The notes under the pieces were generated by a model, which was given only the letters and a program-made list of their open reading frames with translations, was not told the DNA's origin and searched no databases. From an uncultured Granulosicoccaceae bacterium (GTDB lineage: Bacteria > Pseudomonadota > Gammaproteobacteria > Granulosicoccales > Granulosicoccaceae): a stretch of 36,983 bases of DNA. The DNA lies in contig CALLLY010000391.1 in assembly GCA_938008205.1 (NCBI GenBank), positions 1 through 36,983 of the forward strand, in the 5' to 3' direction. A program made the position numbers and the translations under genes. Shown here piece after piece: positions 7,329 to 22,652 of this stretch (positions are counted from its first letter, which is position 1; each line of letters begins with the position of its first letter).

Positions 7329-8288
7329 TTAAGCAGCTTTGCGTTTTGCGACGCTTTCGCACACTACGCACAATAATTCAAACAGGATACCTGCACCTGC
7401 CAGTGCGGTGGTTCCAGAGTGATCAAACGGCGGAGCAACTTCTACCATGTCGGCGCCAATGATATTCAGTCCGCTGCAGCCTCTTATAAGTTGCTGTGCT
7501 TCAAGAGTCGTCAGACCGCCGATCTCAGGTGTACCGGTACCGGGTGCGAAGGCCGGGTCGAGGCTATCGATATCAAAGCTTAGGTAGACTTTGCCTTTGC
7601 CGGCTACACGATGAATTTCATCGATTACCTGGCGCATACCAAGCTCGTGGAAGTCGTGCATGTAAACAACCCGCATGCCGCTGTCGTGACTGAACTTCCA
7701 TAAATCCATATCGTTCAGAGAACCGCGAATGCCAATTTGTATGGTGCGTGTCGGGTCGAGTAATCCTTCCTCGACGGCTCTGCTGAATGGCGCGCCATGA
7801 TGAAACTTGGAACCCATGTAATCGTCACCGGTGTCACAGTGTGCATCGATATGCACCATACCCACGGGTTCCTCTGCAGCCAGTGCTCGCAGGATAGGCA
7901 GAGACACTGAGTGATCGCCACCAACAGCCACCGGCACTATGTTATTGGCCACAACCTGATCGAAGGTGTCTTGAATCGCTTTGTGGCTCCCTTCCAGTTC
8001 AAAAGGCGATGGTACCCAGGCATCACCGATGTCCGACACTCGGCAAAGGTCGTGTGGTGCGATTCCCGTAGTCTGGTTTTTCATTCGAAGCAGCGTCGAT
8101 TGATTGCGAACTTCGCGCGGTCCGTGACGTGAGCCCGGACGATTGGTGACGCCGCCATCGAAAGGAACTCCGATGATGCCAACATCCGTGTCTTTCATGT
8201 CTTCGTGGTAAGGCGCTCGCAAAAATGTCGGCAGGCCAACGTATCGCGGGCGGGCTCTGGGATCTTCAAATTCAGGATAATCTTTCAC
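7329..8288 (-). CDS. agmatinase/ureohydrolase family protein (agmatinase, guanidinobutyrase or related guanidino hydrolase)
   Basis: GGDHS, HIDAHCD and SFDIDSLDP Mn-ligand motifs. ORF track starts at 8345, but a GTG at 8288-8286 overlaps the upstream thiolase TGA (GTGA) and gives VKDYPEFEDPRARPRYVGLPTF, which resembles an agmatinase N-terminus. Confidence 0.88.
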   Translation of the reverse strand: MKDYPEFEDPRARPRYVGLPTFLRAPYHEDMKDTDVGIIGVPFDGGVTNRPGSRHGPREVRNQSTLLRMKNQTTGIAPHDLCRVSDIGDAWVPSPFELEGSHKAIQDTFDQVVANNIVPVAVGGDHSVSLPILRALAAEEPVGMVHIDAHCDTGDDYMGSKFHHGAPFSRAVEEGLLDPTRTIQIGIRGSLNDMDLWKFSHDSGMRVVYMHDFHELGMRQVIDEIHRVAGKGKVYLSFDIDSLDPAFAPGTGTPEIGGLTTLEAQQLIRGCSGLNIIGADMVEVAPPFDHSGTTALAGAGILFELLCVVCESVAKRKAA

Positions 8289-9490
8289 GAAGCGCGTTCC
8301 ATGGTAAGTGCGATGCCCTGGCCCACACCGATACACATTGTGCACAGTGCGCGTTTGAGTTTTTGTTGCCGCAGTTCAATGGCAGCGGTCAGTGCCAGAC
8401 GCGCACCCGACATACCGAGTGGATGTCCCAGCGCGATGGCACCGCCGTTCGGGTTAACGTGGTCTGCGTCATCCGGTAAGCCCAGTTCGCGGGTAACGGC
8501 GAGCGCCTGGGCAGCAAACGCTTCGTTAAGTTCGATAATGTCGATATCAGAAATACTCAGTTGTTGTCGCTGCAGCAACTTCTGCGTAGCCGGGGCAGGG
8601 CCAATACCCATAATTCTGGGTTCGACTCCTGTTGTCGCCATACCGGTAATTCTGGCCTTTGCATTCAGGTTGTATTTTTCAACGGCTCGTTCAGAGGCAA
8701 TGATTATTGCCGCCGCGCCGTCATTGACTCCGGATGCGTTGCCTGCAGTTACGCAACCATTCGATCTAAATGGCGTTGATAGTGAGGCAAGTTTTTCGAC
8801 GCTGGTGGCTCTGGGATGTTCATCTGTCGAAACCACCACTGGATCTTTTTTGTGGCGGATAATCTTAACCGGTTGGATTTCCATGGCCAGTCTGCCGCTT
8901 TCAATCGCTTTGGCGGCACGGGTTTGAGAGCGGTGAGCAAACAAGTCCTGATCTTCGCGCATAATGCCAAACTCTGTGGCGACGTTCTCGGCTGTTTCAG
9001 GCATCGAGTCAATACCGTAAGCGTTTTTCAATGCAGCATTGACAAATCGCCAGCCAATGGTTGTATCGTAGATTTCAGCGTTGCGTGAGAAAGCAGTGTC
9101 GGCTTTTGGCATGACCATAGGTGCGCGCGTCATGCTTTCAACACCACCGGCAATGATCACATCTGCCTCGCCGGCGGCAATCGATCTTGCAGCCATACCC
9201 ACTGCATCAAGCCCTGAGCCGCACAAACGGTTGACAGTAACGGCAGGCACTCCAACAGGCAGGCCTGCCAGTAACACTGCCATTCGTGCAACGTTACGAT
9301 TGTCTTCACCCGCTTGATTAGCGCAGCCGATATAAACGTCATCGATGTATTCCGGGTTAAGTGCACCGACGTTGTTAATAAGGGAATGGATAACGTCGGC
9401 CAGTAGTGTGTCTGGTCGTACACTGGCCAGCGCGCCGCCGAAGCGACCGATAGGTGTTCTTAAACCTTCGCAAATGAAAGCGTTTTGCAT
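8285..9490 (-). CDS. paaJ: acetyl-CoA acyltransferase / 3-oxoadipyl-CoA thiolase
   Basis: Thiolase motifs VNRLCGSGLDAV, NEAFAAQAL, NPNGGAIALGHPLGMSGARL and CIGVGQGIA; PaaJ/PcaF-like N-terminus EGLRTPIGRFGGALA; position in the paa cluster. Confidence 0.88.
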   Translation of the reverse strand: MQNAFICEGLRTPIGRFGGALASVRPDTLLADVIHSLINNVGALNPEYIDDVYIGCANQAGEDNRNVARMAVLLAGLPVGVPAVTVNRLCGSGLDAVGMAARSIAAGEADVIIAGGVESMTRAPMVMPKADTAFSRNAEIYDTTIGWRFVNAALKNAYGIDSMPETAENVATEFGIMREDQDLFAHRSQTRAAKAIESGRLAMEIQPVKIIRHKKDPVVVSTDEHPRATSVEKLASLSTPFRSNGCVTAGNASGVNDGAAAIIIASERAVEKYNLNAKARITGMATTGVEPRIMGIGPAPATQKLLQRQQLSISDIDIIELNEAFAAQALAVTRELGLPDDADHVNPNGGAIALGHPLGMSGARLALTAAIELRQQKLKRALCTMCIGVGQGIALTMERAS

Positions 9491-9564: not shown

Positions 9565-10050
9565 CTATGAATCAACGTCGGCTATTAACGTGGCATTGAG
9601 GCTTCTTGAGTGACCTCTGAACAGCGCAATAGTCTCGTTGTTCTGATTGACAACTTCGGCATCGTAAGTGCCGGAGCGTTTACCACGATTTACTTCTATG
9701 GCAACAGCGGTGAGGGTGTCATTGAGCTTACCTGGTGCAACAAACGTGATGGAGTTGTGCTGTGCGACCGCTACCTGATTGTAGCTGTTGCAGGCAAAAG
9801 CGAATGCAGTATCTGCCAGTGTAAAAATAAACCCGCCATGGCAGATGTCGTGACCATTAGTATGTTGCTGTTCCACCTTCATTGAAACAGTTGCCGTACC
9901 GGGGGCGACGCTTATCAGAGTGATGCCAATGCTTTTACTGGCGTCGTCATTACTCCACATAGCTTCGGCACTGCGCGTTGCGAGTTCTTCGGGGCTCAAG
10001 GCCTCAATCCTATACTTTGAAGTGGTCAGTCTAGCGAAATCGGTTATCAA
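9565..10050 (-). CDS. paaI: hydroxyphenylacetyl-CoA thioesterase
   Basis: Hotdog motif NGHDICHGGFIFTLADTAFAFACNSYNQ, close to E. coli PaaI; N-terminus overlaps the paaX 3' end. Confidence 0.9.
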   Translation of the reverse strand: MITDFARLTTSKYRIEALSPEELATRSAEAMWSNDDASKSIGITLISVAPGTATVSMKVEQQHTNGHDICHGGFIFTLADTAFAFACNSYNQVAVAQHNSITFVAPGKLNDTLTAVAIEVNRGKRSGTYDAEVVNQNNETIALFRGHSRSLNATLIADVDS

Positions 10051-10885
10051 TTACGATATCTGAAACCGGCAGCGGGCCATTTGGTCCCTGCGCCTGTGTA
10101 TCCAGCCAGTGTTCTGCCAGCGGTGTCAGTTGACTGTACAGCAGGGCCACTTTTTTATGGCAGACTTCATCGACGGTGGGTGTAGAGGCAAATCTGACCG
10201 CTGCAGGGTTATGCCGTAGTCTGATGCGCCGCCATTCGTGAATTAGCAGTGTTCGTGTGGCCAATGCCAGCAGTGCATTTTGCACATTCACCTGCAAAAG
10301 ACTATCTACACGCGCTGATAAGCGTTGATATTTCTCAGCAATTAGCGCTGGCAATAGTTGTTGCAATACCCACGCAGGGAGAGAGTTGTTCTGCAGTCGG
10401 CAGACCAGATGGCCTTCACTTGTCAGTTGTTCGATTGCAGTAGTATCTTTTAATTCCGCGATCACAACGCTTTTACCGTGCAGTGACATAGGCCGGGCAA
10501 TAAGATTTTGTGGCAGTGGCTGGTGCGGGTGAGTTGCGACAACGTACAGATCGCCGGTGTCATAACAAGCTTCCGGCAGTGCCTGATAGATTCTGGCAGA
10601 CGCACCAGCGAACTCGTAGATGCCTTTTTCAGCCAGGCGATAGTAACTTTTACGGCCAGACCTGGTGCGTTCTACCCAGCCATCTTTACACAGCCTGGAC
10701 AGTGCTGTGCGTACTGCGCCACTGCCAATAGTCAGTGCCTCCATGACTTCCTGAATAGTGCCGGCTGAAACGGCACCGCCGCGTGTGGAGATGGAGTCGC
10801 CGAAGTAAGTAATAATGACCGACCATGCTTTAAGTGAGTTCTCTGCACGCAATTCGTCGAGCAGTGTTTCAAAACTGTTTGACAC
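10031..10885 (-). CDS. paaX: phenylacetate catabolism transcriptional repressor PaaX
   Basis: SWSVIITYFGDSISTRGGAVSAGTIQEVMEALTIGSGAVRTALSRLCKDGWVERTRSGRKSYYRL winged-HTH typical of PaaX. Confidence 0.92.
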   Translation of the reverse strand: MSNSFETLLDELRAENSLKAWSVIITYFGDSISTRGGAVSAGTIQEVMEALTIGSGAVRTALSRLCKDGWVERTRSGRKSYYRLAEKGIYEFAGASARIYQALPEACYDTGDLYVVATHPHQPLPQNLIARPMSLHGKSVVIAELKDTTAIEQLTSEGHLVCRLQNNSLPAWVLQQLLPALIAEKYQRLSARVDSLLQVNVQNALLALATRTLLIHEWRRIRLRHNPAAVRFASTPTVDEVCHKKVALLYSQLTPLAEHWLDTQAQGPNGPLPVSDIVIDNRFR

Positions 10886-10894
10886 CGTCGTGCT

Positions 10895-12940
10895 TTACAG
10901 TGCGTTCATGGTGTGTAGCTGATAGCTTGCTACCTGCTCATCGTGCTGGTTCAACAGCTTTACGTGCCAGCGTACTTCGCCATAGTCGTCATTGCGTTTT
11001 TTCTTATGTTGTACCGTCAGGCTGACTTTGATGCTGTCACCCGGCGATACCGGTTTTTGAAAGCTCAGATCTGTCAATCCGGTGTTGGCGAGTACCGGCC
11101 CCGGGGCAGGGTCCACAAACAGACCGGCTGCAAACGAAAGCAGCAGGTAACCGTGTGCGACACGGCCAGGAAAAAACGGATTGGCAGCAGCGGCATCTTC
11201 ATCCATGTGGGCATAGAAGGTGTCACCGGTGAAGTGAGCAAAGTGTTCAATGTTTTCCAGTGTGATCTCGCGGCCATCGGTGTGCAGTGTTTCACCAATC
11301 TCGAGTGCGTTAAAAGATTTGCGAAACGGGTGTTCAGTTTTAGTAGTCTCTTTTGCGCCGACAACATAACTGCCGGTCACGGATTGCAACAGATCAGGAG
11401 AGCCTTGTATTGCAGTGCGTTGCATGTAGTGCTTCACCGCTCTGATGCCTCCGAGCTCTTCACCCCCTCCGGCGCGGCCGGGCCCGCCATGAACCATGTG
11501 CGGCAGAGGGGCTCCATGCCCTGTGGCCTCTTTAGCTGAGTGCAGGTTGTTAAAATACAGTCGCCCGTGCCACGCCGCAGATCGGCTGGTGACTTCTCTC
11601 GCAATACTGCCATCCTGAGTAACTACTGATGCAACCAGACTACCCTGACCCCGGTTGAGCAACTCGCAAGCGTGATTTAAGTTTTTGTAAGGCATTAGTG
11701 TGGACACCGGACCGAATGCTTCAACGCAATGCACCGTCGCTGTGTTATCGGGATCATTGCAGCAATACAGCTTTGGGGTAATAAAAGCACTGTGGTTTAT
11801 ATTTTCACCTTCGATGTTAAGGTCTGTACTGCCAAATACCAGCGTGGCATCAGCGCTGATTTGCTCGCAGGCCGCGACCACACTTTGCTTTTGGTCGGCG
11901 GACACCAGTGCTCCCATGGTGGTTTGCGATAATGACGGATCGCCAATGACTAATTGTGCAAGCTTTGCATTGAGCGCTTGTGTGGTGTTGTCTATCAGAG
12001 ACTGCGGTACCAGTATGCGGCGAATTGCCGTACATTTTTGACCGGCTTTAACAGTCATTTCACTAAATATTTCATTGATAAAGAGATCAAAGTCTTGGCT
12101 GCCGTGACTGATGTCGGGGCCGAGCAATGTGGCGTTCAAGCTGTCTTGTTCCGCATTGAATGGGACGGCGTTTTGCAAAAGATTAGCGTTGGATCGCAAC
12201 GTATTAGCGGTATTCGCAGAACCGGTGAAAGTCACAATGTCCTGTGACTCCAGTTCATTCAGTAGATTGCCAGTGCTTCCGCAAATTAATTGAAAGGAGC
12301 CGGGCGGGAATATGCCGCTGTCAATCATCAGCTTAAAGCAGGCTTCGGTGATGTAGCTGGTGGAAGTAGCAGGCTTGATAATCGCAGGCATACCGGCCAG
12401 CAAAGTGGGTGCTAGTTTTTCAAGCATGCCCCACACTGGAAAATTAAACGCATTAATATGAACGGCAACACCGGGTTTGCTGGTGTAAACATGTTGGCCG
12501 ACAAAAGAACCGTGTCGCGATAACTGTTCAACTTCCCCATCGGTGCAAAGAGTGTCATCAGGGAGTTCTCGTCTTCCCTTGGACGCATAGACAAAAACGG
12601 TGGCAATACCGCCGTCTATATCAATTTTTGAATCTGCCGCAGTCGCACCACTGTGAAAAGCCAGCTGCGTAAGATATTCAGTGTGCTCGCCAATATAGAG
12701 TGCCAGCTGCTTCAGCTTTTTGGCTCTGTCGTGAAAGGTGAGCTCTCTGAGTGCCGGACCGCCCTGTTGTCGCGCATAGCTGAGCATGGCCTGAGTATCT
12801 ATACCATTGTTGCCAGCGCATGCGATTTGTTCGCCGGTGACGGCGGAATGTATAAGCCGTGCACTTGAGTCGGGCTTTATCCATTGATTTCCAACATAGC
12901 TGCTGACAATCTGGTCGGGGATGCTGAGATTGTGTTGCAT
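10895..12940 (-). CDS. paaZ: bifunctional oxepin-CoA hydrolase/3-oxo-5,6-dehydrosuberyl-CoA semialdehyde dehydrogenase PaaZ
   Basis: 681 aa; aldehyde dehydrogenase domain (HINAFNFPVWGMLEKLAPTLLAGMPAIIKPA, GQKCTAIRRILVP) plus C-terminal MaoC hydratase domain (FAHFTGDTFYAHMDEDAA...FFPGRVAHGYLLLSFAAGLFV). Confidence 0.95.
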   Translation of the reverse strand: MQHNLSIPDQIVSSYVGNQWIKPDSSARLIHSAVTGEQIACAGNNGIDTQAMLSYARQQGGPALRELTFHDRAKKLKQLALYIGEHTEYLTQLAFHSGATAADSKIDIDGGIATVFVYASKGRRELPDDTLCTDGEVEQLSRHGSFVGQHVYTSKPGVAVHINAFNFPVWGMLEKLAPTLLAGMPAIIKPATSTSYITEACFKLMIDSGIFPPGSFQLICGSTGNLLNELESQDIVTFTGSANTANTLRSNANLLQNAVPFNAEQDSLNATLLGPDISHGSQDFDLFINEIFSEMTVKAGQKCTAIRRILVPQSLIDNTTQALNAKLAQLVIGDPSLSQTTMGALVSADQKQSVVAACEQISADATLVFGSTDLNIEGENINHSAFITPKLYCCNDPDNTATVHCVEAFGPVSTLMPYKNLNHACELLNRGQGSLVASVVTQDGSIAREVTSRSAAWHGRLYFNNLHSAKEATGHGAPLPHMVHGGPGRAGGGEELGGIRAVKHYMQRTAIQGSPDLLQSVTGSYVVGAKETTKTEHPFRKSFNALEIGETLHTDGREITLENIEHFAHFTGDTFYAHMDEDAAAANPFFPGRVAHGYLLLSFAAGLFVDPAPGPVLANTGLTDLSFQKPVSPGDSIKVSLTVQHKKKRNDDYGEVRWHVKLLNQHDEQVASYQLHTMNAL

Positions 12941-12987: not shown

Positions 12988-15024
12988 TTACCTGGATAAG
13001 GCGTACTTGTTGGCTAAGGTCCAGCTGTCGGGGCTTTGAGTGATAACGCGGTTGAGCGCGTCCCGAATTGCATCATCTCCGGCTTGAGCGGCGGCGTGCA
13101 TGGGGCCGCCGCGCCAGCGTGGAAAACCATAGCCGTGTATTTTGACCATATCTATATCAAGTTCGCGTTCGGCAATGCCTTCTTCGAGAATGCGTGCTCC
13201 TTCATTGGCAAGCACTGCGATGAGTCGCTGTTGAATGTCTGATTCATCGAAGGATTGTCTTGTGATGTTTTGCTGTCGTGAGTATTCATTGATCAGATCA
13301 ATCACTTTTTGATCATTGTGTGGCTGGCGGCTGCCCTGTTCATAGATGTACCACCCTGCGCCATTGCGTTGCCCGAATCGTTCCAGCTCGCATAGCTGGT
13401 CGGCAATTGGGATGTATCGTTCCGCCGGGTCACGCGTGGGTGCCAGCCGCTTTCTATTGGCGTATCCGATTTGCAGGCCGGTTAAGTCCTGTAACTGATA
13501 CGGACCCATAGGCATACCATAATTTCGCATGGCGTTATCGATCTGTAGCGGGCTGGCGCCGTCGGCCAACAGGTAATCTGCCTGCCTTCTGTAGGCGGCC
13601 AGCATACGGTTGCCAATGAATCCATCGCAGATACCCGACAAAACACCTGTTTTTCCGAGCTTTTTAGCAAACGCAAACGAAGTAGCCAATACGTCCGTTG
13701 AGGTATGTGGCGTACGAACAATCTCCAGTAACTTCATGATATGCGCTGGAGAAAAAAAGTGCAGTCCGACAATACGCGATGGGTTATCGGTGTCGGCTGC
13801 AATATCCAGAGGGTTAATATAAGACGTGTTGGTTGCAATAATAGCGTCGCTGCGCAGGTGTTTGGCCAAGTCTTTAAAAACCGTTTGTTTTACTGCTAAG
13901 TCTTCAAATACCGCTTCAATGGCAATGTCGCATTGTGCGGCAATGCTGTAGTCGTCACTGCACTGCAGCATGGACATCTTTTTCTGCAAACCGGCTTTAT
14001 CGATTTTTCCACGCTTCAGTGCGCTTTGCAGAAGGTTATCAACATTGCTGATACCGGTTTGAGGATTGACTTCGATCATTCGAACTTCGAGACCGGCCAG
14101 CAAGCATGCGGCTGCTATTCCCGACCCCATCAGGCCACCACCGACGATGGCAATAGATTGAAAAGGTTTTACGTTGCCGTTTTTTATTGCATCGGGCTTT
14201 GCGACTAAACGTTCAGCAAAGAATGCATGGCGAAGTGCGACAGATTGTTCGCTGTTACGCAGCGTTAAATGAAGTTGCCGTTCCATTGGTTGCCCTTCGC
14301 TAAAGGGTATTTTAGTGGTCCATTCAACGGCCCGCAGATTGTCCAGCGGGGCGGTTGCACCTTTGGCGGCTTTGGTTACTTTGACCTTTTGATCTGCAAA
14401 GAAATCGGCCGGCACTGCGGTAACGGACCGTTGACTGACACTGGTTGGTGTGCGGGCTGCGGACGGGCTCTCTAAAAATGCCTTCGCAGCAACATCCAGG
14501 GGTTCCTGCACAATGGCATCGAGGCCTCCTGCTTCGAGCAATTCTGACGCACTGATCATGCGACCGCTGCAGCAAAGATCGGCCGCCAGTTCTGCGCCCA
14601 CCAGTCTTGGCAATCGTTGCGTGCCTCCGGCGCCGGGCACCAGCCCCAGGTTGACCTCGGGCAAGCCGAAGCGACTGGTTGCGGTGGAGAGGCGAAAGTC
14701 GCAAGCCATGGCGAGTTCAAACCCACCGCCGAGCACGGTGCCGAACATGGCTGCCAGCCAGATAATCGGACTGTCTTCTATTTGCTGATAGACATCCGGC
14801 AGGTGTGGTTCCTGTGGCGGTTTGCCGAATTCCGAGATGTCTCCACCTGCAACGAAAGTTCGACCGTGGCATTGAATAATGCCATGCGTGTGTCCGGCTG
14901 AGGTTGCCGCTGTAACTGCGTCGGCAAGCCCGGCTCGCACCGATAAAGACATAGCGTTAACCGGCGGGTGGTCAATGGTGATAATCGCCAGGCCGTCTTC
15001 TGCATGGTAGGTAACAGGGTTCAA
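12988..15024 (-). CDS. enoyl-CoA hydratase/3-hydroxyacyl-CoA dehydrogenase fusion protein (FadB/FadJ-like; likely paa ring-cleavage product beta-oxidation)
   Basis: N-terminal crotonase motifs ([31 protein letters not shown]) followed by 3HCDH motifs ([41 protein letters not shown]). Confidence 0.92.
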
Positions 15025-15070
15025 GCGGGTCTCTCCGGGTAGGAATCAAGCAAAACGTCGCAGTGTCGCT

Positions 15071-15114
15071 ATATGTTACAGAATTTGCATTGGTAATCAA
15101 ATTCTGTAACATAT
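15071..15114. promoter_or_regulatory. perfect 17-bp inverted repeat (10-bp spacer) in the divergent paa promoter; candidate PaaX operator overlapping two symmetric promoters
   Basis: ATATGTTACAGAATTTG-cattggtaat-CAAATTCTGTAACATAT; + strand TTGCAT-16-TAACAT (15085-15112), - strand TTGATT-16-TAACAT (15100-15073). Confidence 0.75.
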
Positions 15115-15143
15115 CAATTTTCAGGCACACCGACGGGGCGACC

Positions 15144-16136
15144 ATGTATTCGCAGGGTTTAATTGGTGCAAACACCGAAACGCAGGAAACGCCGGAGTTT
15201 CTGGCGGCTTTTCAGGCGCGTATAGACGCCGAGGAAAAGATCGAGCCGAACGATCCCATGCCGGCAGCCTATCGCAAGACACTAATTCGGATGATCAGTC
15301 AGCACGCACATTCCGAGATCGTTGGCATGCTGCCGGAAGGTAACTGGATTACCCGCGCACCCACGCTGCGGCGCAAGGTGGCGCTGCTTGCGAAAGTGCA
15401 GGACGAGGGTGGTCATGGACTGTACTTGTATTCGGCCGCTGAAACGCTGGGTGTATCGCGTGAACAGCTGACTCAGGAACTGCTAACCGGCAAAGCGAAG
15501 TATTCTTCGATCTTCAATTACCCCACACCGACCTGGGCGGATATCGGTGCCATAGGCTGGCTGGTAGACGGCGCGGCAATTATGAACCAGGTGCCATTGT
15601 GCCGGTGCTCGTATGGTCCCTATGCCAGAGCTATGATTCGCGTGTGTAAAGAAGAGAGCTTTCATCAGCGGCAGGGCTATGAGTTGATGACCAGTCTTGC
15701 CGAAGGCACCGAAGAACAAAAAGCTATGGCACAGGACGCTCTCAATCGCTGGTGGTGGCCATCGCTAATGATGTTTGGTCCGTCCGATTCCGATAGTCAG
15801 CACTCTGATCAGTCGATGGCCTGGAAGATCAAACGCTTCACCAATGATGAACTTAGACAGAAATTTGTCGATGCGACTGTCCCTCAGGCCGAGTTGATCG
15901 GGCTTTCGATGCCTGATGAAAAGCTCACATGGAATGAATCTAAAAACAACGGGCAGGGTGGGTATGACTTTGGTGAAATTGACTGGGATGAATTCTGGCA
16001 GGTAGTGAAAGGCCACGGCATGATGAATAAAGACCGAATCAATGCCAAACGTAAGGCCTGGGATGATGGTGCATGGGTTCGGCAGGCTGCACTGGCACAC
16101 GCCGAAAAGCAAAACCAACGCAAAGCGGCCGCTTAA
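15144..16136 (+). CDS. paaA: 1,2-phenylacetyl-CoA epoxidase subunit PaaA
   Basis: Strong PaaA similarity ([59 protein letters not shown]). Start re-assigned from 15063 to the ATG at 15144 because 15063 lies in the promoter palindrome region. Confidence 0.95.
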
Positions 16137-16146
16137 GGGAAGCGCT

Positions 16147-16437
16147 ATGAGTGATGAAAAAATGATTCCGCTGTGGGAAGTGTTTATCCGCCCGCGCAAT
16201 GGATTGAACCATAAACATGTTGGTAGTCTGCATGCCGCTGATGGGGAGCTGGCGTTGCAGGCAGCGCGCGATGTTTATACACGGCGTGAAGAGGGCAATT
16301 CTATCTGGGTGGTGCGGGCAGAAGATATTCTTGCTTCAGATCCCGATAAAAGTGCTGAAAACTTCGATCCCGCGGCAGATAAAATCTATCGCCACCCGAG
16401 CTTTTACGATATTCCTGATGAAGTGGGGCACATGTAG
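16147..16437 (+). CDS. paaB: 1,2-phenylacetyl-CoA epoxidase subunit PaaB
   Basis: WEVFIRPRNGLNHKHVGSLHAADGELALQAARDVYTRREEGNSIWVV; start re-assigned to the ATG at 16147 downstream of paaA. Confidence 0.95.
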   Translation: MSDEKMIPLWEVFIRPRNGLNHKHVGSLHAADGELALQAARDVYTRREEGNSIWVVRAEDILASDPDKSAENFDPAADKIYRHPSFYDIPDEVGHM

Positions 16438-17198
16438 TGACAGAGCATAAGGACCATCTGAAAGTTGCACTGCTGCAAGTAGCGGATGATCATTTGATAC
16501 TGGGACACCGTTTGTCGGAATGGTGCGGCCATGCCCCCATGCTGGAAGAAGATTTATCGATGCCTAATATGGCACTTGATCTTATCGGTCAGGCGCGGCA
16601 TCTATATACCTATGCGGCAGAACTTGAAGGGCTGCAGCGCAGTGAAGACGATCTTGCCTATCTTCGCACAGATCGCGAATACACGAATTGCCTGCTGGTA
16701 GAGCGTGGCAATATAGATTTTGCACATACCATGCTCAAGCAGTTGTATTTCGCTGCTTATATGAAGCCTTTCTGGCAATTTGTAGAAGGCTGTTCAGATA
16801 ACACCCTCAGTGCCATAGCTGGTAAAGCGGTGAAAGAAATCTCTTACCATATAAGACATGCCGGTGAGTGGGTTATCCGGCTTGGTGACGGTACTGACGA
16901 GAGCGCCGAGCGCATGCATCTGGCCGTCGAAACGCTGCATCCGTACACGGAAGAGCTATTTTGGATCGATGAACATCGCAAGATCTGTATCGATGCCGGC
17001 CTGCTGCCAGCGGCTGATGTAGTACGGCCTCAGTGGGACGCTACGATCAGCGCTGTGTTTGAACAGGCAAAGCTTGCCATTCCAGAGGTAACCTATCCGC
17101 TTCTGGGCGGGCGCGAAGGGAAACATACAGAAGCGTTTGGATATCTGTTGGCAGAGTTACAGTATATGCAGCGAGCGTATCCGGGGGCACAGTGGTAG
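16437..17198 (+). CDS. paaC: 1,2-phenylacetyl-CoA epoxidase subunit PaaC
   Basis: LGHRLSEWCGHAPMLEEDLSMPNMALDLIGQARHLYTYAAELEG; GTG start overlapping the paaB TAG. Confidence 0.95.
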   Translation: MTEHKDHLKVALLQVADDHLILGHRLSEWCGHAPMLEEDLSMPNMALDLIGQARHLYTYAAELEGLQRSEDDLAYLRTDREYTNCLLVERGNIDFAHTMLKQLYFAAYMKPFWQFVEGCSDNTLSAIAGKAVKEISYHIRHAGEWVIRLGDGTDESAERMHLAVETLHPYTEELFWIDEHRKICIDAGLLPAADVVRPQWDATISAVFEQAKLAIPEVTYPLLGGREGKHTEAFGYLLAELQYMQRAYPGAQW

Positions 17199-17674
17199 AT
17201 GTAGTACAACAAGCGCGTCTGGTTGCGCAAGCGGTCGCTGATCCCGAATTGCCTTTCCTGACCGTGCAGGATCTCGGTATTCTGCGCGGCGTAAAGCTGG
17301 AAAACGGGGTGGTGATTGCTAGTGTCGCACCGACTTACTCGGGTTGTCCTGCGGTTCGGGTTATTGAACAGGCGGTGGAGCAGGCATTGGCAGAAGCCGG
17401 GTTTCAGGCGCGTGTTGAAAGAGTAATGCATCCGCCATGGAGTACCGAGTGGATTACGCCTGAAGGGCGCAGGAAATTGCTTGAAAACGGGATTGCACCT
17501 CCGCCTGCGGACGCATCAGCCGATCAAACTTTTTTTGCGGTTCGTGAGGTTCAATGTCCTCTTTGCAAAAGCATGAGTACAGAGAAAGTTTCCGAGTTTG
17601 GTTCTACGCCTTGTAAAGCACAGTACCGATGCAAGAGTTGTCTTGAGCCATTTGATCACTTCAAATGTCACTAG
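17192..17674 (+). CDS. paaD: 1,2-phenylacetyl-CoA epoxidase assembly protein PaaD (DUF59/MIP18-type)
   Basis: DPELPFLTVQDLGILRGV...PTYSGCPA and C-terminal CPLCKS...CKAQYRCKSCLEPFDHFKCH zinc-ribbon. Confidence 0.94.
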   Translation: MVDVVQQARLVAQAVADPELPFLTVQDLGILRGVKLENGVVIASVAPTYSGCPAVRVIEQAVEQALAEAGFQARVERVMHPPWSTEWITPEGRRKLLENGIAPPPADASADQTFFAVREVQCPLCKSMSTEKVSEFGSTPCKAQYRCKSCLEPFDHFKCH

Positions 17675-17761
17675 AGCGATGGCCGATCCATCCGGAGTGA
17701 CAAGCTCCCAGCGCATCTGTTGAATGACGTACTTCACCTGAAAAATCACTGAAAAAAGAAC

Positions 17762-18829
17762 ATGGCAAAGCCTGAATTTCATGAACTCACTATCGCCGCG
17801 GTCAGGCAGCTTACCGATGACTCGGTTGCCATTAGCTTTAGCCTGCCTGCCGAACTGGCTGATCACTATGACTTTGTTCCCGGTCAGTACCTGACCTTAA
17901 GAGCAACCGTTAATGACGAAGATGTTCGACGCTCGTATTCTATATGTTCCAAGTCTGGTGACCCGCTGGAGGTGGGCATAAAGAAGCTTAAAGGTGGGTT
18001 GTTTTCGACTTTTGCTCAGAGTCTTAAAGCCGGTGACAAGCTGCAGGTGATGACGCCGCAGGGCAATTTTAAAGCACAGCCAGAAGGGAAGCATCACTAT
18101 CTATTGATTGCCGCAGGCTCTGGAATTACTCCCTGTTTGTCTATTGCCAAATCGGTACTGGATCAGGAACCTGAAAGCCTTATCACTTTGGTTTACGGTA
18201 ACCGCACTACCGCTTCGATTATGTTCCGTCAGGACATAAATGATCTTAAAGATAAATATACAACGCGGTTTGTCTCTATCAATGTGATGTCTGGTGAAAA
18301 GCAGGATGCTGAGTGTTTGAATGGCAGAATCGACCGCGACAAGGTTATCTCTCTTATTGATCAAAAGTTATTGAATCTGTCGCACTGCGACGGTGTGTAT
18401 ATCTGCGGGCCCGCGGCAATGGTGGAAGACGTTAAGGCTGGCCTTGGTGCCGCGTTGAGTGATGATGTGGCGATTCATACAGAGCTGTTTACTACCGGTG
18501 ATGTGGCCAGAGAACCGGCTGTGGTGAACGTCCCTGTTGATTCTGATGCATTGTCAGTGAGAATAATTATTGATGGCGCTGAGCGTGAAGTAAAAATGAA
18601 TCCACAAAGCGAAACAGTATTGGCTGCGGCGCAGAAAGCCGGGCTTGACCTGCCGTTTTCCTGTGCGGGTGGCATGTGCTGCACGTGTCGCTGCAAGGTG
18701 GTTTCCGGTAAAACTGCGATGGATATGAACTTCTCTTTGGCTGACTGGGAACTGGAGGCCGGATTTACGCTTGCATGTCAGACCCGCCCGCTCGATGATT
18801 CTGTATTACTCGATTTTGACGAATTTTAA
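17762..18829 (+). CDS. paaE: 1,2-phenylacetyl-CoA epoxidase reductase PaaE
   Basis: FNR-type domain (GQYLTLRATVNDEDVRRSYSICS, IAAGSGITPCLSI) plus 2Fe-2S ferredoxin domain (LPFSCAGGMCCTCRCKVVSG). Confidence 0.95.
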   Translation: MAKPEFHELTIAAVRQLTDDSVAISFSLPAELADHYDFVPGQYLTLRATVNDEDVRRSYSICSKSGDPLEVGIKKLKGGLFSTFAQSLKAGDKLQVMTPQGNFKAQPEGKHHYLLIAAGSGITPCLSIAKSVLDQEPESLITLVYGNRTTASIMFRQDINDLKDKYTTRFVSINVMSGEKQDAECLNGRIDRDKVISLIDQKLLNLSHCDGVYICGPAAMVEDVKAGLGAALSDDVAIHTELFTTGDVAREPAVVNVPVDSDALSVRIIIDGAEREVKMNPQSETVLAAAQKAGLDLPFSCAGGMCCTCRCKVVSGKTAMDMNFSLADWELEAGFTLACQTRPLDDSVLLDFDEF

Positions 18830-20536: not shown

Positions 20537-22432
20537 TCAGGCTGCCGGATAGCCTATGCCGGCAAGTGCTTCGGTAATTTCGTCCAGAATGACAGGATCA
20601 TCGATGGTGGCTGGCATCTTCCATTCAGTGCCGTCGGCGATAGAGCGCATCGTTGCCCGCAGGATTTTTCCGGAGCGGGTTTTTGGCAGGCGTTGTACCA
20701 CCACCACATTTTTAAAAGCTGCAACCGGTCCAATCTCATCTCGTACGCGTTGAATGACTTCGCGGCAAATGTCATTGTCTGCCTTTTGGGTATTGGCATT
20801 CAGTACCAGCAGGCCTACCGGGAGTTGCCCTTTTAATTCATCTGCTGCTCCCATTACCGCGCACTCGGCCACGTCCGGGTGTCCGGATAGCACTTCTTCC
20901 ATCGCCCCGGTAGACAGTCTGTGACCGGCAACGTTGATGACATCGTCCGTTCTAGCCATTACATAAACATAACCGTCTTCATCGATGTAACCGGCGTCGC
21001 CGGTTTCGTAGTGCCCCGGAAAGGTTGAGAAGTAAGCTGATTCGTAGCGGTCGGGTGCGTTCCAAAGCGTGATGAATGAGCCCGGTGGCAGCGGCGATTC
21101 AGCGACCAGCGCACCGATTTCGCCAGCGCTGCATTCCTTGCCATCACTGTTAAGGACTTTGAGTTGATAACCGGGAGCGGGTTTGGTTGGTGAGCCTGGT
21201 TTAACCGGTAAAAGTTCGATGCCCAGATAGTTGGCACAGATTGATGATCCGGTTTCGGTTTGCCACCAGTGGTCGATGACTGGCACACCCAGTTGATCCT
21301 GTGCCCAGGCAAGCGTGTCCGGATCGCAGCGTTCGCCTGCCAGAAACAGCGACCTCAGTCCTGAAATGTCGTATTTTTTCAGGTAATCGCCATTCGGGTC
21401 TTCTTTTTTGATCGCCCGGAAGGCGGTCGGTGCAGTGAACAAGGCTTTGACGTTGTGTTCACTGATCACTCGCCAGAACGCACCCGGATCTGGTGTGCCG
21501 ACGGGTTTGCCTTCGTACAGCACGGTGGTGTTGCCGTGAAACAAGGGGGCGTAAACGATGTATGAATGCCCAACGACCCAGCCAACATCCGATGCGGCCC
21601 AGTACACTTCACCGGGCTCAACGCCATAGATGTTTTTCATGGTCCACTTAAGCGAGACAATGCCGCCTGCAGTATCCCGCACCACGCCTTTTGGCATACC
21701 CGTGGTGCCAGAGGTGTAGAGAATATACAGCGGATGGTTGGCTGGAAGCTCGGCGCACTCGGTTGCGGGAGCTTTGGCTAATGTTTGCTGCCAGTCGTAG
21801 TCTCTGCCGTCAATCAGGGAGGCCTGCGCCTGTTCGCGCTGAAGAATTATGCATGCCTGCGGTTTGTGCGACGCCAGCTCGATAGCTTTGTCTAGCAGCG
21901 GTTTATATTCGACAGTTCGGCCGGGTTCGATACCGCAAGATGCAGCAAGAATCAGTTTTGGTGAGCAATCATCAATCCGGACGGCGAGCTCATTGGCCGC
22001 AAAGCCGCCAAACACTACTGAATGGATTGCGCCAATACGGGCACAGGCAAGCATTGAGACGACGGCCTGCGGAATCATTGGCATGTAGACGATCACGCGA
22101 TCGCCGGCAGTCACTCCTTTTTCTAGCAGCATGCCGGCGGTGCGACTGACCTCGTCCAATAGCTGGCTGTAAGTAATTTTCTGCTGCGTATTGGTGACCG
22201 GGCTATCGTAGATGATGGCGTGCTGATCGCCCCGGCCTTCGTTAACATGGTGGTCAAGCGCGTTGAAACAGGCGTTGGTGGTACCGTCCGGATACCATTG
22301 GTAGAACGGTGGTCTGGCCTCATCGATGGCCCTGGAGGGGGCTTTGAACCAATGAATGTCCTCAGCCAGCTTGAGCCAGAAGTTGTTCCTGTCGGCAATT
22401 GAGGACTCGTGAATGGGGGCGTAGCGAGACAT
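20537..22432 (-). CDS. prpE: propionyl-CoA synthetase / acyl-CoA synthetase (ACS family)
   Basis: YTSGTTGMPKGVVRDTAGG, YWAASDVGWVVGHSYIVYAPL, DHWWQTETGSSI and PKTRSGKILRATMRSIADG. Start re-assigned to the ATG at 22432 (MSRYAPIHESSIADRNNFW), since the upstream 33 aa do not look conserved. Confidence 0.88.
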   Translation of the reverse strand: MSRYAPIHESSIADRNNFWLKLAEDIHWFKAPSRAIDEARPPFYQWYPDGTTNACFNALDHHVNEGRGDQHAIIYDSPVTNTQQKITYSQLLDEVSRTAGMLLEKGVTAGDRVIVYMPMIPQAVVSMLACARIGAIHSVVFGGFAANELAVRIDDCSPKLILAASCGIEPGRTVEYKPLLDKAIELASHKPQACIILQREQAQASLIDGRDYDWQQTLAKAPATECAELPANHPLYILYTSGTTGMPKGVVRDTAGGIVSLKWTMKNIYGVEPGEVYWAASDVGWVVGHSYIVYAPLFHGNTTVLYEGKPVGTPDPGAFWRVISEHNVKALFTAPTAFRAIKKEDPNGDYLKKYDISGLRSLFLAGERCDPDTLAWAQDQLGVPVIDHWWQTETGSSICANYLGIELLPVKPGSPTKPAPGYQLKVLNSDGKECSAGEIGALVAESPLPPGSFITLWNAPDRYESAYFSTFPGHYETGDAGYIDEDGYVYVMARTDDVINVAGHRLSTGAMEEVLSGHPDVAECAVMGAADELKGQLPVGLLVLNANTQKADNDICREVIQRVRDEIGPVAAFKNVVVVQRLPKTRSGKILRATMRSIADGTEWKMPATIDDPVILDEITEALAGIGYPAA

Positions 22433-22652
22433 TGGCTCTCCAGAAAAAGTGTGCACGAATTGAATGGATGGCCGTATTGTCTCGCAGTTGGACAAGCAAC
22501 GGCAATGATTCTGCGCTTGTAACGGCTGCAAAATGTGCTAAAAACTGAGAAAGGGGAGATGCCCGGAACGGGTCAATTATGTGAATTTTTGTTAATAATT
22601 CACAGCGGTAATGCGGTAACCTGTTGGACCTGCTATAAAAATTGACTTGGTG

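Follow-up and report, generated by a model that had tools for sequence, protein, structure and literature searches.

A perfect inverted repeat between divergent phenylacetate operons as a probable PaaX operator in an uncultured Granulosicoccaceae bacterium

Introduction

The stretch of Granulosicoccaceae DNA analysed here (36,983 nucleotides, referred to as the window) carries two divergently oriented operons for phenylacetate (paa) catabolism, and the 119 bp gap between them (15025-15143) contains a long inverted repeat, which raises the question of which regulator acts at this site and whether it governs both operons alike. The gap is bordered by the TTG start of a fused ECH/3HCDH gene on the minus strand (15024) and by the ATG of paaA on the plus strand (15144). 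The repeat (15071-15114) is composed of a left arm, ATATGTTACAGAATTTG (15071-15087), a 10-nt spacer, CATTGGTAAT (15088-15097), and a right arm, CAAATTCTGTAACATAT (15098-15114). The 17 bp arms are 100% complementary, which confirms the perfect palindrome that a sequence-only reading of this DNA had described in the gap.

The paa gene cluster and its PaaX protein

The plus-strand operon, paaABCDE (15144-18829), encodes the phenylacetyl-CoA epoxidase and is identified by the models TIGR02156, 2157, 2158, 2159 and 2160, all above cut-off. The minus-strand operon consists, in this order, of the ECH/3HCDH gene (12988-15024), paaZ (10895-12940; TIGR02278, 943 bits), paaX (10031-10885), a paaI-type thioesterase gene (9565-10050; TIGR02286, 148 bits), a paaJ/pcaF-type 3-oxoadipyl-CoA thiolase gene (8285-9490; TIGR02430, 642 bits) and an agmatinase-like gene. 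The fused hydratase/dehydrogenase gene at the head of the operon resembles FadB/FadJ models, with scores below their cut-offs; in E. coli the corresponding part of the pathway is encoded by the separate genes paaF, paaG and paaH. Beyond paaE lies an acetate/propionate-CoA-ligase-like gene (20537-22531, minus strand), which scores under the curated cut-offs of all its top matches. The paaK gene, whose product makes the inducer of PaaX, is separated from the paa cluster, being located on a different contig (G000:C269:6707-7963, L232), and the 1.5 kb to each side of it contain no PaaX-type site, the best score there being 12/20, so that synthesis of the inducer may escape PaaX control.

PaaX, encoded third in the minus operon, is a winged-helix repressor and the presumed binder of the repeat. 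It carries the PaaX domain PF07848 (77 bits; cut-off 24.8), and its score with the equivalog model TIGR02277 (115.8 bits) stays below the cut-off of 264.55. The protein is divergent in sequence and shares 43% identity with E. coli PaaX over the 81 residues of the DNA-binding part. A Foldseek search returned the PaaX structures 8A39 (E. coli PaaX) and 3L09 (E <= 2e-10) and nothing besides these at E <= 0.001. Domain, fold and context identify 10031-10885 as paaX, even though TIGR02277 alone would miss the name, and PaaX is the only regulator among the scanned window proteins.

Conservation of the probable operator in relatives

A position-wise search reveals an equivalent site upstream of paaA in 19 of 19 close family genomes, namely those with a close paaA (at least 81% protein identity) and readable upstream DNA on the contig. 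The family compared includes contigs deposited as Granulosicoccaceae, and a twentieth genome (G001) was left out because its contig breaks upstream of paaA. The family sites are 38-39 bp long from edge to edge; TTAC is invariant across their 38 half-sites, the consensus of which is ATATGTTACA. In the window this corresponds to a left half-site, ATATGTTACA (15071-15080), and on the same basis a right half-site, TGTAACATAT (15105-15114), with a conserved core of TGTTAC-N26-GTAACA spanning 38 bp edge to edge (15074-15111). Such sites are also located upstream of paaA in many Alphaproteobacteria. Between the window and G007 the repeat is identical at 42/44 positions, its adjoining 25 bp flanks at 14/25 and 6/25, and paaA at 78%.

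The symmetry of the repeat extends further in a few genomes. The inner stretch between the half-sites (15081-15104) has an outer 7 bp on each side by which the symmetry is continued in three genomes, those of the window, G012 and G007; 7/7, 6/7 and 7/7 positions pair there, respectively, compared with a mean of 46% in the other sites. As high pairing of the inner arms is limited to these three genomes, the full 17 bp symmetry is an extension built within a subclade onto conserved half-sites. This answers a doubt raised in the sequence-only reading, which considered the symmetry more complete than expected of a PaaX site: relatives keep the outer 10 bp half-sites only, at a spacing like that of E. 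coli PaaX, and three genomes, one of them with a single mismatch, have added the inner 7 bp to each arm. The element is very probably a conserved operator; its half-sites face each other, and they cover the promoters predicted for each of the divergent operons.

The same reading had suggested a genome-wide scan for the motif. The exact sequence GTTACAGAATTTG occurs in the 3.66-Mb draft genome at the two arms and nowhere else. The relaxed core (at most two mismatches) at a spacing of N24 does not exceed the control, with 8 matches against 8 for the reversed pattern; at N25 there were 18 raw matches against 9 for the control.

PaaX as the probable regulator of both operons

The inverted repeat is very probably a PaaX operator, at which PaaX would silence both divergent operons, its own gene included, until phenylacetyl-CoA frees the DNA. 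PaaX had been put forward as the natural candidate from the sequence, and comparison between genomes now supports it well through conservation, co-occurrence with paaX and a layout like that of E. coli. In a set of 80 public-genome paa loci, the site is present at 18 of the 22 that have paaX linked and at 6 of the 58 that do not (Fisher p 2e-9), where a site was counted at a score of at least 15/20, a threshold picked after the data had been seen and for a motif derived from the window itself. Within the family the site accompanies PaaX in 23 of 27 PaaX-bearing genomes and is found in 0 of 8 PaaX-less ones (p 2e-5). A paaX gene is encoded elsewhere in five of six checked genomes that have none beside paaA (L036, L037, L038, L064 and L070, which carry a scored site, and L044, which lies just under the threshold), the exception being L064. 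In G032 and G039 paaX and paaA are divergent neighbours and the site is located between them. The scored site is absent beside paaA in four of the 22 paaX loci and in four of the 27 family genomes with PaaX, and some PaaX loci of this kind carry TGATAC-type sites that the score misses. A kinship-aware test of PaaX presence against the site yields five independent pairs, none of them contrary and too few for significance.

In E. coli the operator of PaaX reads TGATTC-N27-GAATCA (PMC9493321), and the same scan applied to the E. coli Pa, Px and Pz regions gives 39, 38 and 40 bp edge to edge. Like these operators the element of the window consists of two inverted half-sites (38 bp here, 38-40 bp in E. 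coli), it adjoins divergent paa promoters, and it would place the operon of PaaX under its own control. The spacing is that of E. coli PaaX, and the layout is therefore that of a PaaX site with a different half-site. The half-site is TGTTAC instead of TGATTC, with two of the six letters changed, so the element is classed as a variant and not as an E. coli-type box. In summary, the spacing, the place over or next to paa promoters and the presence of a PaaX gene in the genome agree with a PaaX operator, and the half-site TGATTC is not found. Unlike E. coli, where Pz and Pa have separate sites and paaXY forms a separate unit, a single shared site here serves two divergent operons, one of which includes paaX. 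No paper on TGTTACA in connection with PaaX, and no PaaX motif beyond that of E. coli, was found in the library searched, so that an earlier description elsewhere, for instance in RegPrecise or a subscription journal, is possible.

What is directly observed is the conservation of the element, its layout, its linkage to paaX and the order of the genes; it is on the analogy with E. coli that PaaX binding, its oligomeric state, the inducer response and promoter occlusion are proposed. A PaaX dimer, or two, would sit on half-sites that are about three helical turns apart on the same face of the DNA, and bound PaaX would block RNA polymerase at both promoters, shutting off paaABCDE together with the ECH/3HCDH-paaZ-paaX-paaI-paaJ operon. 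Phenylacetyl-CoA, the known inducer of PaaX, would then relieve the repression. Because paaX is located within the minus operon, the repressor would be produced along with the enzymes and be subject to negative autoregulation, a suggestion of the earlier reading that is strengthened by the comparative evidence. It may not be a universal arrangement: the unlinked paaX genes of five genomes are not preceded by a clear site of their own, save for a weak one in L236, which implies that autoregulation does not occur throughout.

Are the two promoters controlled equally?

The repeat contains a candidate minus promoter (15073-15100), TTGATT (15100-15095)-16-TAACAT (15078-15073), and a candidate plus promoter (15085-15112), TTGCAT (15085-15090)-16-TAACAT (15107-15112). 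All of these hexamers had been named from the sequence and are indeed present at 16 nt spacing in both directions; the proposal that they form mirror-image promoters holds up in one half. The TAACAT in the left half-site is the best minus promoter position in 10 of the 19 family sites, several of which have a TTGA 16-17 nt away as in the window. The plus TAACAT position is the best in 4 of 19, three of which belong to the subclade with extended arms, and in the window it competes with an alternative plus promoter, TTGGTA (15090-15095)-16-TATCAA (15112-15117). These rankings stem from a simple sigma-70 matrix, by which the plus candidate of the window is scored as TTTGCA-17-TAACAT. With the plus twin confined to the three-genome subclade, mirror-image promoters are plausible there and not general. 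In this subclade the inner arms have turned symmetric as well, which would generate a similar TTG...TAACAT promoter each way.

It is possible, though rather unlikely, that PaaX binds the repeat and the two operons are nevertheless controlled unequally. The real plus promoter would then lie elsewhere, the symmetry would be incidental, and paaA would be either roadblocked or not repressed via this promoter. The narrow distribution of the plus TAACAT speaks for such an arrangement, as does a strict consensus promoter scan, which finds neither promoter of the window. Other relatives have TTGACC-18-TATTAT-like plus promoters around the left half-site, and in Alphaproteobacteria the plus -10 element (TATAAT, TATTAT, CATATT and similar) is mostly displaced downstream by 3-5 bases, to a position occupied by TATCAA in the window. 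Against unequal control, the two TAACAT and the two TTG hexamers are all preserved across the window, G012 and G007. Four genus members (L172, L174, L176 and L178) carry, around the left half-site, a strong promoter-like plus pair of TTGACC-18 and TATTAT, AATAAT or TACTAT, which is missing in the window.

Other readings of the repeat

That the repeat instead serves as the operator of a different dimeric regulator, for example a PaaR of the TetR type with its gene elsewhere in the genome, while PaaX acts at other sites or has no role, is improbable. PaaR does govern the same operons in some bacteria (PMC9493321; PMC2770484) and may share its genomic context with PaaX (PMC13186573); the genome is moreover a draft, and the regulator survey covered the window proteins, among which no TetR gene was detected. 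PaaR operators likewise are inverted repeats in paa promoters that respond to phenylacetyl-CoA as inducer (PMC9493321). However, those of Burkholderia and Thermus are compact repeats of 14-15 bp (ACCGACCGGTCGGTT; CNAACGNNCGTTNG) dissimilar to the present element, and a PaaR-type 15 bp repeat, ACCGACCGGTCGGTT, between -35 and -10 is absent from the gap. The site furthermore tracks paaX, and its third base tracks a residue in the PaaX helix (see below). Compact PaaR-like repeats were observed upstream of paaA in two loci with no paaX found nearby, GACCGTCCGGTCGGT in L097 and TTGACCGTCCAATTGGTCAA in L041.

A function of the repeat in RNA, as a hairpin, attenuator or terminator, is less probable still. 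A perfect 17 bp stem with a 10-nt loop would fold, but it is the letters that are conserved and not the pairing, given that the inner arms pair at 46% outside the subclade and TTAC is constant in the family, and with the -10 elements inside the arms a transcript would begin outside the repeat. The hairpin and terminator readings are rejected on this conservation pattern and on a terminator scan, which found none. A functionless palindrome produced by chance or assembly has next to no likelihood and is refuted by conservation: the window does come from a fragmented draft assembly as one of its contigs, but composition predicts 6e-5 perfect repeats per window (2e-7 per gap) with arms of 17 bp or more and a loop of 0-30, and independent genomes carry the same element in the same place.

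Half-site spelling and the recognition helix

The PaaX operator may be spelled in more than one way depending on its repressor. The third base of the half-site (T or A) matches the PaaX residue at the position of S63 in 48 of 49 cases, although this association is statistically weak as it reflects one or two changes on the tree only. A Ser at this position (xRTAxSRL) goes together with TGT half-sites, and Phe, Ala or Thr with TGA half-sites, those of E. coli among them. In the AlphaFold model of the window PaaX, S63 is within the predicted recognition helix (55-67), ahead of the wing strands (71-84); no structure of a PaaX-DNA complex was known as of a 2022 review (PMC9493321). Within the family of the window, G046 combines an E. 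coli-type PaaX (VRTSVFRL) with TGATAC half-sites (G046:C453, L135; G046:C116, L204), which suggests that regulator and operator were acquired together by horizontal transfer. It is tentatively proposed, as a conjecture that is less likely than not, that at least two PaaX operator spellings (TGTTAC and TGATAC/TGATTC) are set by one recognition-helix residue (Ser63 versus Phe and others), and that the operator of the subclade has become an almost complete 44 bp palindrome, by which a single repressor would govern nearly identical promoters of the two divergent operons.

In other respects the element would be an ordinary catabolic repressor site. It provides a concrete operator motif with which PaaX sites can be searched for beyond the enterobacteria, in Granulosicoccaceae-like Gammaproteobacteria and many Alphaproteobacteria, along with a hypothesis of DNA reading by PaaX that centres on a single residue, and the motif would aid in assigning phenylacetate regulons in uncultured genomes.
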